From a virus, in the IMG/VR virus record IMGVR_UViG_3300017967_000292, positions 1-20,307 of that record: DNA of 20,307 nt. One strand, given 5' to 3'. Positions 9,904 to 19,616 of this stretch are shown one piece after another. The notes beneath the pieces were generated by a model. It had not been told where the DNA came from and ran no database searches. It saw only the letters and a list, made by a program, of their open reading frames with translations. Numbering within the stretch: the stretch's first letter is position 1; each line of letters begins with the position of its first letter. A program made the translations under genes and the position numbers.

Positions 9904-11106
9904 ATGAAAATAGAGCAATTTAGACACCAAACAACCACAGAACAGTTAAACGATAGACTGGCTAAAGTGTTTGGATCAGCAATTAAACTGGATCAATTCA
10001 CTGATGAGCAATTAAAAAGTGCTCAGCAAACTGTGGTTCATAAGATTGCTAACATAGAACAAAATGAGTCCTTTGATGGTTTAAGCCATAACGAAGATTA
10101 TCACAAACAAAAAATGTTTTTAGATGTAATTAATTCTGCTCTTGAAGACAGAGCCCATGAATCAAAATTACAAAATACTATAATGGTTCAAGCAGACGAA
10201 TTAGTAGGCGATTATTTTGACCAGGACAAAGAAGCATTAAAAATGAATAAAAGTGCCGTAATTGCTGACATGAAGAAAAGACAGCAAACAGCAAAAGGTG
10301 ACGAAGCCAATGCTATACATTATGCTATTCAAAAAGTTGAACATGATTTCGAAGATGATGGTTCAATGAAAGACAATCCATACGAAGGCAACGAATTTGC
10401 TCTAGCAGTAAACAAAGCCAAAGCGGCAGGTATGAAAAAAGGCGACAAATTTAAAGTTGGTGATAAAGAATACACATTGAAAGATTGTGAAGATATGTTA
10501 GAAACAATGAAAAAGAAAAAAATGAAAGAAGCAAAACCAGATTTCCTAGACATGGACAAAGATGGCGACAAAAAAGAACCAATGAAAAAAGCAATCAAAG
10601 ATAAAGAAAAGAAAAAAATTAAAGAAGGCGCAGAAGAAAATGCCCAATTAGTAATGGCGGCTAAAGACATGGTTGACAAAGTTACAGGATGGATGGAAGA
10701 CACAGCATCTATGCAAACAGAGTCAATGTTGGAATTAGCAGATGCTGTTAGAGATGAAATGGGTGCAGAACAATCAGAACAGTTTGTAAACACAGTTAAG
10801 CCAAGTTTAGAATCTTTATATACTTCATTAGAAGCAACAAGAGAAGCACTAACAGGTGGCGTAGCCGTCCTGACAGGCGAACAAGCACCAGATACAATTG
10901 GTGCGGATGCTGAAGAACCTGCTATGGAACCTTCAACTGATGACGATGCGGATACAGATATGCCAGATGTGGCAGATGACTTTGCCGCAAGCGAACCAGC
11001 ATCAGGTGGTGAAGAACCAGCAGACAGAGGCAAAAGAGAATCATTCATAAGATTGTCTAGAAGACTTGCTGAAACACTTTCTACAAGATCAAAAAAAAAG
11101 GCTTAA
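9904..11106 (+). CDS. Large acidic/lysine-rich phage protein with EF-hand-like loop, likely virion or scaffold
   Basis: A 400-aa protein. N-terminus MKIEQFRHQT. The first 140 residues are helical and charged. Next comes a Lys-rich region with KPDFLDMDKDGDKKEPMKKA, whose D-x-D-x-D-G pattern resembles a calcium-binding EF-hand/Excalibur loop and which I recall as a signature repeated in cyanomyovirus structural proteins. A helical domain follows (about 240-320), then a very acidic, Glu/Asp/Pro-rich linker (about 330-375). The basic end (KRESFIRLSRRLAETLSTRS) finishes in KKKA. The stop comes two codons after a dnaX-type slippery site (11094-11100), so a longer -1 product is possible. An acidic scaffold-like or head-internal role is inferred. 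The antisense 239-aa frame is a shadow. Confidence 0.82.
   Translation: MKIEQFRHQTTTEQLNDRLAKVFGSAIKLDQFTDEQLKSAQQTVVHKIANIEQNESFDGLSHNEDYHKQKMFLDVINSALEDRAHESKLQNTIMVQADELVGDYFDQDKEALKMNKSAVIADMKKRQQTAKGDEANAIHYAIQKVEHDFEDDGSMKDNPYEGNEFALAVNKAKAAGMKKGDKFKVGDKEYTLKDCEDMLETMKKKKMKEAKPDFLDMDKDGDKKEPMKKAIKDKEKKKIKEGAEENAQLVMAAKDMVDKVTGWMEDTASMQTESMLELADAVRDEMGAEQSEQFVNTVKPSLESLYTSLEATREALTGGVAVLTGEQAPDTIGADAEEPAMEPSTDDDADTDMPDVADDFAASEPASGGEEPADRGKRESFIRLSRRLAETLSTRSKKKA
11094..11100 (+). promoter_or_regulatory. Putative -1 programmed frameshift site (A AAA AAG)
   Basis: In the frame of the 400-aa gene the heptamer reads A-AAA-AAG, the E. coli dnaX slippery sequence, inside a run of nine A. The zero-frame stop TAA is at 11104-11106. 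A -1 slip enters a frame open to 11429. A small GATCAGCAGTGCTGAC hairpin lies about 55 bases downstream, and no nearer structure is obvious. Confidence 0.55.
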
Positions 11107-11150
11107 TTTCTGAGGCCTCTAACATCGATTTAATTCGTGTTCTGAGAAAT

Positions 11151-11429
11151 TTGATCAGCAGTGCTGACTCACAAAATCAAAAAGCGTATTTGACTTTTGA
11201 TGCTCTTAACAAAATTTTAACCAATGTTGGAGGCGTCAGTGTCAATCATGATGCTTTCAAATCTGCATACGATTCAAACCCAGCAATAAAAAAAATGATT
11301 AAGAACTTTGATAAGTCTGGTATCACACTGGACACAGATGCAGAATCACCTGATCTGCCTACCAAAAAAGGTGCTCGTGGATCCAGTCTATCCACCATGG
11401 CAAAGAGAGCAACCAAAAAACGCCAATAA
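11151..11429 (+). CDS. -1 frame extension or separate gene, conserved T4-like phage C-terminal module
   Basis: The frame is open from 11073 to 11429 without ATG or GTG near its start. The first usual start is TTG at 11151, with no ribosome site. Read by -1 frameshift from the 400-aa gene, it would continue from 11100 (GLISEASNIDLI...) for 109 residues, giving a 508-aa protein. The encoded segment (LRNLISSADS, YDSNPAIKKMIKNFDKSGI, ending STMAKRATKKRQ) resembles, by recall, a separate small protein in cyanomyoviruses, so the reading is conserved coding sequence whichever way it is expressed. I give the minimal span; the true start is uncertain. An undercounted A in the run would also fuse the frames. 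Confidence 0.62.
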   Translation: MISSADSQNQKAYLTFDALNKILTNVGGVSVNHDAFKSAYDSNPAIKKMIKNFDKSGITLDTDAESPDLPTKKGARGSSLSTMAKRATKKRQ

Positions 11430-18100: not shown

Positions 18101-18514
18101 ATGCCTAAATACAATTTACTATGTTCTCGGGATCACGAATTTGAAGGTTGGTTCGATTCTGAAAAATCATATATAAATCAAAAACAAAAAAAGTTAATCG
18201 GATGTCCGATATGCGATGATACATTGATACGTAGGGCAGTCATGTCACCTAACATAAGTCCAAAAACTAAAAAAATCACAAGTAAAAAAAGCAATACTGC
18301 TTTTTATAATAGCAGATCTACTCTTCAACATTTGAAGACCTGGGTCGAAAAAAATTGTGAAAATGTAGGTGATCGATTTGCCAAGGAGGCTCGTAAAGCG
18401 TCTTTGGGAGAACGTGATGATCATATATACGGTACAGCATCAGATAAAGAAATAAAAGAACTTCATGAAGAAGGAATAGGAGCAATAAGAATACCAAATG
18501 TCAAAGATAACTGA
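18101..18514 (+). CDS. DUF1178 family zinc-ribbon-like protein
   Basis: A 137-aa protein matching, by recognition, the DUF1178 (COG5319) family common in alphaproteobacteria. It has an N-terminal LLCSRDHEFEGWFDS segment with C8-x3-H12, and a CPIC pair (C35, C38) that would complete a zinc site. The conserved C-terminal part includes VGDRFAKEARKASLGE, IYG-AS and a final EEGI segment. The cellular family has no known function. The middle is Lys-rich and longer than usual. It leads an early transcription unit continuing into glutaredoxin, whose start overlaps its end by 17 bases. This is probably a host-derived auxiliary gene. Confidence 0.85.
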   Translation: MPKYNLLCSRDHEFEGWFDSEKSYINQKQKKLIGCPICDDTLIRRAVMSPNISPKTKKITSKKSNTAFYNSRSTLQHLKTWVEKNCENVGDRFAKEARKASLGERDDHIYGTASDKEIKELHEEGIGAIRIPNVKDN

Positions 18515-18749
18515 AGTAATAGTTTGGAGTAAGCCAATGTGTCCATATTGTGATATGGCAAAAGCCTTGCTTAAACAAAAAGAAATACAATACGAAGAAA
18601 GAAAAATTGGTGAAGGTTGGACCAAAGAACAACTGCTTGAAGCATTACCCAATGTTAGAAGTGTACCACAAATCATAATCAACGGAAACTCTATTGGAGG
18701 ATTTCAGGAATTGAAAGCCTTCTTTGAAAAAGGAGAACATAATGGCTAG
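18498..18749 (+). CDS. Glutaredoxin
   Basis: An 83-aa dithiol glutaredoxin. It has the active site C15-P-Y-C18 (PMCPYCDMAK), the cis-proline loop VRSVPQIIING and the GG glutathione-binding turn (IGGFQEL). It can reduce the NrdA tail using glutathione, completing the RNR system encoded just upstream. The start overlaps the DUF1178 gene by 17 bases, and its end overlaps the Sm-like gene by eight, so the three are coupled. Length is typical for phage glutaredoxins. Confidence 0.95.
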   Translation: MSKITEVIVWSKPMCPYCDMAKALLKQKEIQYEERKIGEGWTKEQLLEALPNVRSVPQIIINGNSIGGFQELKAFFEKGEHNG

Positions 18750-19029
18750 ACCACAAGCAGGAGACACAATAACTATCAAACTGATGAGCGGTGAGGAAGT
18801 AATAGCACGTTTAGAAGAAGATCAAGAAGAGAAGTTAGTAGTAGCAAAACCAAGAGCTATTGTTAATATTCCTAACAAAGGAATAGGTCTTGGACCATTT
18901 GTGTTTACCATACCACAAAATGCTTCAATTGAAATCTACAAAAAGAATGTGGTGTGTTATACTGAAACTGAAGATGGCATGGCTAGACAATACACACAAG
19001 GTACAACAGGTTTAACACTGCCTAAATAA
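18742..19029 (+). CDS. Small Sm-like beta-barrel phage protein
   Basis: A 95-aa protein from the ATG at 18742, supported by a perfect AAGGAG site; an in-frame TTG at 18724 is rejected. ITIKLMSGEEVIARLEED resembles the first strands of Sm/LSm folds, and the rest is beta-rich (KLVVAKPRAIVNIP, ASIEIYKKNVVCYTE). Similar small proteins are, by recall, conserved in cyanomyoviruses. It overlaps glutaredoxin upstream and shares TAATG with the HAD gene downstream. RNA binding is a reasonable guess from the fold, but no binding residues can be confirmed. Confidence 0.72.
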   Translation: MARPQAGDTITIKLMSGEEVIARLEEDQEEKLVVAKPRAIVNIPNKGIGLGPFVFTIPQNASIEIYKKNVVCYTETEDGMARQYTQGTTGLTLPK

Positions 19030-19616
19030 TGTCAAAAATTATAGCCACAGACTGCGATGGTGTACTGCTCAAATGGGAGCAAAGTTTCGATGCTTGGATG
19101 AAGTTTCAAGGCTTTCCCAAATTGGCCAATGATCACTATGAAATGCACATGAACTATCATATGAATAAAGGTCAATGTGAAGTGTTGATTAAAATATTCA
19201 ACGAGAGTGCTTGGATGAAAGATCTAGAACCTATAGATGGTGCTGTGGAAAATGTTAAAAAAATCGCTGATTTAGGATACAAGTTTCATGTGATCACTAG
19301 TCAGACGTTGGACATCAAAGCAAATCAATTGAGAGAACAGAATCTTAAGGAAGTGTTCGGTGATGTGTTTGAAACAATAGAGTGTTTGGACACAGGAGCG
19401 GACAAAGATGAAGCACTATCCAAAATACCAGAAGGTACCGTTTGGATAGAAGACAAACCGGTTAATGCCGAATTAGGTGCTGACATGGGTTTGGTAGCAT
19501 TACTACTTGACCATGCACACAATTCAGTGTATAATACAGTTAATTCAGTCCGAAGAGTAAAAGATTGGACTGAAATTTATAACGTTATAAAGGAGAAACA
19601 TCATGGCAACACATGA
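19029..19616 (+). CDS. HAD-superfamily phosphatase, possibly 5'(3')-deoxyribonucleotidase-like
   Basis: A 195-aa HAD hydrolase. Motif I is TDCDGVLLKW with nucleophile D8 and D10, motif II is FHVITSQ (T90/S91), K126 is a candidate motif III lysine, and motif IV is VWIEDKP (E141, D142) for Mg2+. The helical cap between motifs I and II (about 17-70) is of the C1 type seen in deoxyribonucleotidases. A role in nucleotide recycling fits its neighbours (RNR, glutaredoxin), but substrate is not fixed by sequence. It is translationally coupled on both sides: TAATG upstream, and a 14-base overlap with the histone-like gene downstream. Confidence 0.87.
   Translation: MSKIIATDCDGVLLKWEQSFDAWMKFQGFPKLANDHYEMHMNYHMNKGQCEVLIKIFNESAWMKDLEPIDGAVENVKKIADLGYKFHVITSQTLDIKANQLREQNLKEVFGDVFETIECLDTGADKDEALSKIPEGTVWIEDKPVNAELGADMGLVALLLDHAHNSVYNTVNSVRRVKDWTEIYNVIKEKHHGNT

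Follow-up and report, generated by a model that had tools for sequence, protein, structure and literature searches.

A 20,307-nucleotide stretch of viral DNA (the window) raises the question of how two adjoining reading frames are expressed when the second has no start codon. The upstream gene, ORF1, ends over a run of nine A, and the frame that follows it, ORF2, lies in -1 relative to it. A first-pass annotation had proposed a programmed -1 frameshift here, and comparison with relatives supports that proposal: most of them keep both the -1 relation and the missing start, and ORF2 shows the mark of purifying selection. We put the probability of a programmed -1 frameshift, most likely ribosomal, at about two in three, in the absence of peptide, transcript or reporter data. 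The junction has the following elements.

9904–11106, + strand: ORF1, the 0-frame product of 400 amino acids, starting MKIEQF and ending SKKKA before the stop codon
11091–11099, + strand: slippery run of nine A, read from the sequence; at least nine A in 70 of 75 non-redundant relatives
11094–11100, + strand: A-AAA-AAG heptamer in the ORF1 register, from the sequence and the junction comparison
11104–11106, + strand: 0-frame stop codon TAA, one sense codon past the slip site
11100–11429, + strand: ORF2 in the -1 frame, 109 amino acids, from GLISEASN to MAKRATKKRQ, without a start codon
11106–11117, + strand: codons for I-S-E/A, a motif like that cut by the T4 prohead protease, just past the junction

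The 3' end of ORF1 reads TCA AAA AAA AAG GCT TAA, and both the position of the run and the register of the heptamer are as first described. Inspection of the frames also bears out the rest of that description: the -1 frame remains open until a TAA at 11427–11429, a slip would join 399 residues of ORF1 to the 109 of ORF2 in a 508-residue product, and there is no ATG or GTG in the ORF2 start region, where the sole candidate is a TTG at 11151. One record, L001, has a junction identical to that of the window and differs from the window outside positions 10303–11278.

Conservation of the run and the -1 frame

Relatives were gathered by using ORF1 and ORF2 as queries against viral contigs, and by scanning bacterial assemblies, and were reduced to a non-redundant set of 75 junctions that are less than 90% identical. 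The 70 with at least nine A comprise 61 A9G, 4 A9C, 4 A10 and 1 A11 junctions, and ORF2 is in -1 in every one of them. This recurrence takes the junction beyond chance. In a wider tally of all distinct rows, ORF2 is in -1 in 101 of 101 A9 rows, and 96 of these lack an ATG or GTG in the ORF2 start region. Conservation of A-AAA-AAG, which had been put forward as a check, holds in part: the heptamer is present in 61 of the 70 junctions and is replaced by AAC or AAA variants in 9, but the conserved unit is the run of nine or more A and not the heptamer alone. The 0-frame stop varies in position by clade, following the run at once, after one sense codon, or after up to seven codons.

The same run and frame occur in two contigs from bacterial MAGs, a 335-kb contig in a Neomarinimicrobiota MAG (L268) and a 29.9-kb contig in a Rickettsiales MAG (L267), which are possibly phage contigs binned into bacterial genomes. 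Some junctions carry additional repeats. In L259, near 1455–1501, the A9 run appears twice in tandem ahead of the 0-frame stop, and L079, L081 and L101 have an extra short A-AAA-AAG abutting that stop, several codons past the A9 site.

The ratio dN/dS for ORF2 in the -1 frame is 0.05–0.26 among close relatives, with a control frame at about 1; by this measure ORF2 is under purifying selection. Codon use within the run is also unusual. The two full lysine codons are AAA without exception (140 of 140 cases), whereas the AAA share is 72% for lysine codons elsewhere in ORF1 and 57–78% at other conserved lysine columns. The slip-site codons were counted directly because the extreme C terminus aligns poorly in the conserved-column analysis, and the nominal odds overstate the case because the rows share ancestry. 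However, dS is often near 1 even inside the window clade, so there has been enough time for synonymous changes to arise. The run keeps its first A even where the serine to which this base belongs has become proline (L216) or glycine (L067). Judged by these comparisons, a conserved and selected -1 fusion at the A9 site is close to certain.

In the five non-redundant relatives that lack the run, ORF2 stands apart as a gene that starts at an ATG of its own; two of the five are distant cultured phages, in which it is the gene following the ORF1 type that does so. The wider tally contains 12 run-less rows, and in all 12 ORF2, or else the gene that follows, has an ATG. GGAG or GGA lies upstream of the ATG in most of the run-less rows inspected, for example just 5' of it in L030, L154–L156 and L249–L252. 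The separate ORF2 homologues begin MRLFELAG, MRFSEFAN or MRVSEVII, and the next genes in the phages Atu_ph07 and Phosso begin MRLIDLLE and MRLSEIIN, with insignificant matches to the ORF2 profile. The best ORF1 tree implies four changes between run and separate gene. Repeated switching is likely but not proven, because well-supported branches of this sequence tree force only one change and the tree-based pair test is too small.

RNA structure downstream of the run

The first-pass annotation saw no strong stimulatory structure close by. Energy and covariation tests instead point to a conserved structure that begins 11–14 nt downstream, with these predicted elements in the window.

11115–11125, + strand: 5' arm of helix P1, GCCTCTAACAT, 14 nt past the heptamer; the helix may reach upstream to 11110–11112
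11224–11234, + strand: 3' arm of helix P1, ATGTTGGAGGC, closing a branched fold
11099–11118, + strand: alternative small hairpin AGGCTT/AGGCCT at the end of the A run, which excludes P1 and for which there are no covariation data

The regional energy in the window clade is -36.4, compared with -31.5 (s.d. 0.57) when codons are permuted within columns and -17.0 (s.d. 0.7) with random synonymous codons. The covariation score of P1 was matched by none of 500 shuffles, with changes on both sides in two pairs only. The freshwater clade has a hairpin of about 13 pairs that starts 11 nt past run-plus-one in 29 of 51 sequences and 14 nt past it in 13 of 51. Its mean energy is -14.9 kcal/mol, compared with -9.3 (s.d. 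0.33) when codons are permuted between sequences that share the amino acid and -5.0 when synonymous codons are drawn. Here too no shuffle out of 500 matched the covariation score, with roughly one in four pair cells unpaired. RNAalifold, a method that requires a single fold across all rows, returned no consensus for the freshwater alignment.

No RNA structure beyond coding constraint was found upstream of the site, and a comparable energy excess elsewhere in ORF1 or ORF2 was confined to the +60 window of the marine clade, where there is an additional hairpin. The -30 nt window was left out because it spans the frame change. As far as alignments can tell, RNA structure 3' of the site is conserved beyond coding constraint in both main clades; stimulation of slippage by it is not shown. 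That the structures differ while lying at about the same place suggests a function tied to the slip site. A third clade (L079–L101) has a different fold by prediction only, with one hairpin near the run and another far downstream. Sequences of this clade contain a very stable hairpin, ATAGGTAG-GCTGAT/ATCAG-CCTGCCTAT, within ORF2 about 75–90 nt past the A9 run.

Ribosome, polymerase or separate gene

If the ribosome makes the shift, most ribosomes would terminate at the ORF1 stop and yield the 400-residue protein. A fraction would slip back by one base on A-AAA-AAA-AAG, aided by the structured RNA 11–14 nt downstream, and read on into ORF2 to give the 508-residue protein. Two readings would dispense with slippage altogether. 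Homopolymers are error-prone, and a one-base error in the A run of a single continuous gene had been raised at the outset as an alternative. Yet independent assemblies retain the A count, with the same run and frame in more than 100 distinct rows drawn from numerous metagenomes and in the two bacterial MAG contigs, and the distance from the run to the 0-frame stop ranges from 0 to 7 codons depending on the clade. The recurrence of one device in so many related virus sequences marks it as a real gene-expression switch; a sequencing or assembly error is refuted in practice, and we give it essentially no credence. ORF2 might otherwise be an ordinary gene that starts itself, from a non-standard codon or by re-initiation past the ORF1 stop. 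Five of the 101 A9 rows do have an ATG or GTG near the ORF2 start, three of them as TAATG, and a normal start in relatives had been named as evidence that would count against frameshifting. Some relatives indeed have one, but they are exactly those without the A run; the run and the ORF2 start replace each other. An independent start is rejected for nearly all A9 rows, and as a general account of the locus it is very improbable.

The fusion could also be made in transcription, if RNA polymerase stutters on A9 and produces mixed mRNAs, among which those with one A more or two fewer would encode it; such slippage may also join that of the ribosome. The run is longer than A-AAA-AAG requires and has a sharp lower limit of nine in all 70 run-bearing junctions, which suits polymerase slippage, and so do the retention of its first A through changes of residue and the tolerance of A9C, A10 and A11 variants. 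Nine A or T are enough for efficient slippage by bacterial polymerases, a property used by Thermus dnaX (PMC5009743). The ribosomal reading meets three difficulties. Nine of the 70 sites have AAC or AAA without the G, which favours the polymerase, as A-AAA-AAG is far more slippery than these forms in E. coli (PMC5009743). The helix is 11–14 nt away, whereas spacers between slip site and structure are usually 5–9 nt, although 11–14 nt occurs in some viruses (PMC5009743). Finally, the upstream sequences read in the window and at the junctions of relatives contain no Shine–Dalgarno-like element about 10 nt before the heptamer. However, A9 holds two overlapping heptamers, so its length is also explicable by the ribosome, and the conserved 3' structure favours the ribosome because it would not yet have formed while the polymerase occupied the run. 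We therefore favour the ribosome over the polymerase and regard transcriptional slippage as unlikely, though still the foremost competing account; the two could act jointly. That slippage occurs, that it is ribosomal and at what rate it proceeds are all inferred.

Possible head targeting and comparison with known systems

The ORF1 N terminus MKIEQF resembles a capsid-targeting leader, and several neighbouring genes start with MK-x-x-E-[FIL] or similar; no targeting data are available.

4792, + strand: MRLVEF
5936, + strand: MKAKEF
8535, + strand: MKITEIVAES
8885, + strand: MKIREITET
9265, + strand: MKINEL
9904, + strand: MKIEQF (ORF1)

Genes sharing this putative leader probably form a set of capsid-targeted proteins. 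Other genes of the window include one for a 683-residue protein with CHASE2 and nucleotide cyclase catalytic domains (357–2408, + strand), which is unusual for a phage record. Genes for DUF1178 (18101–18514), glutaredoxin (18498–18749) and HAD/NT5C nucleotidase-like (19029–19616) proteins adjoin apparent ribonucleotide reductase genes, the latter judged by eye.

The I-S-E/A motif that the first-pass annotation had picked out past the junction recurs as a motif, without cleavage data: [ILVM]xE is found within the first ten residues past the slip in all 70 fused forms, and the strict form, [ILV]xE[AGST], in 79%. The frequency of [ILVM]xE is 46% in shuffled peptides and 0–6% in the blocks of 14 residues that come next in ORF2, and the strict form is absent from the five such blocks. 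The protease may cut at this motif, the motif may survive from a leader that was lost, or both may hold. Two related contigs of 372 kb (L118 and L121) carry a T4-type gp23 and an S77 prohead protease, so that the group probably consists of very large, T4-like phages. No match to the S77 protease was found in 11 other records; these are possibly fragments, and the window, at 20 kb, is one too.

Similarity searches say little about either protein. A cyanomyovirus-like module had been suggested in ORF2, but neither the window ORF2 nor two diverged relatives used as queries found an ORF2 relative among 50,697 phage records, and named phages, cyanomyoviruses included, gave no DNA or protein match to the window ORF1 or ORF2; the suggested link to cyanomyoviruses and pelagimyophages was thus not found. 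Pfam and PHROGs gave no match for the window ORF2, a single weak and unnamed PHROG for ORF1, no match of ORF1 to capsid families and no similarity to tail chaperones. ORF1-type proteins have weak matches among named phages only in Atu_ph07 and Phosso. The Agrobacterium phage Atu_ph07 protein gp044, matched at 35% over 24% of the L030 query, is annotated "virion structural protein", and mass spectrometry identified 131 virion proteins in the isolate (PMC6102473). The description of the product as a virion protein accordingly has the support of this distant homologue and of the leader and protease motifs, but no data for the phage itself. The ORF1 structure model is poor (pTM 0.32). That of ORF2 has good confidence for most of residues 10–80, with the helix–strand–helix–helix–hairpin order of a winged helix, and the protein ends in a basic tail (MAKRATKKR). 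Searches of the PDB with the ORF2 fold gave many weak winged-helix matches and no significant one, so that a role of this modelled domain in DNA binding is only a guess; its best viral matches are unnamed phage proteins.

Tentatively, the frameshift may be a capsid-targeting device. The leader of ORF1 would probably carry the ORF2 domain into the prohead as part of the fusion, at a fixed minor ratio, and a T4-type prohead protease would probably then cleave at the conserved [ILV]xE just past the junction and free ORF2. Lineages would switch between this arrangement and a separate, leader-bearing ORF2, and the RNA structure that evolved at this position would differ from clade to clade. Entry into the prohead, cleavage and the role of ORF2 are inferences.

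Parts of this scheme have known counterparts. The site shares its heptamer and downstream RNA structure with E. coli dnaX but has A9, lacks the upstream Shine–Dalgarno stimulator and has its helix 11–14 nt away; the shift gives the longer product here and the shorter one in dnaX. Frameshifting in IS911 and the IS3 family uses a site of the A-AAA-AAG type. The stimulatory RNA of IS911 is a branched three-way junction (PMC5009743), resembling the branched fold of the window clade, but the window gene is a virion-type phage gene, with no similarity seen to these transposases. In Thermus thermophilus dnaX, transcriptional slippage likewise acts on a nine-base homopolymer (nine T), but it truncates the product instead of opening a second frame. 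Gene 10 of phages T7 and T3, the source of the minor coat protein by -1 frameshifting, similarly encodes a structural protein in two forms, one short and one extended at its C terminus. However, the protein extended here is not the major capsid protein, for which L118 and L121 have a distinct gene (gp23), and the ORF2 extension bears a protease-like site. The lambda G/GT tail assembly chaperone is also a low-copy fusion made by slippage in a tailed phage, but the window proteins do not resemble tail chaperones, and T4 lacks this frameshift (PMC5009743). T4 internal proteins and Alt have MK-x-x-E leaders and a [LI]xE cut motif, which the leader-like start and the motif here resemble, gp21 cleaving Alt at ITE and LTE (PMC5694885), and the separate-gene ORF2 homologues have such a putative leader of their own. 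Each T4 internal protein has its own gene and leader, whereas ORF2 rides on ORF1 by frameshifting. Thus heptamer frameshifting, extended phage structural proteins and the T4 leader and protease were already known; the open-licence papers searched did not contain their combination in this phage group.

In tailed phages, frameshifting is best known from tail chaperones and T7-type coat proteins. If correct, the present reading would explain why ORF2 may be split or missed by gene callers. The A9 run with its conserved RNA would offer a clean test of the way in which polymerase and ribosome slippage share one site, and relatives with the run, set beside those with a separate ORF2, would provide a natural comparison for the purpose of a fixed fusion ratio. 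It would also add a widespread case of frameshifting in large T4-like phages from marine and lake waters, linked to head assembly and maturation by the prohead protease.
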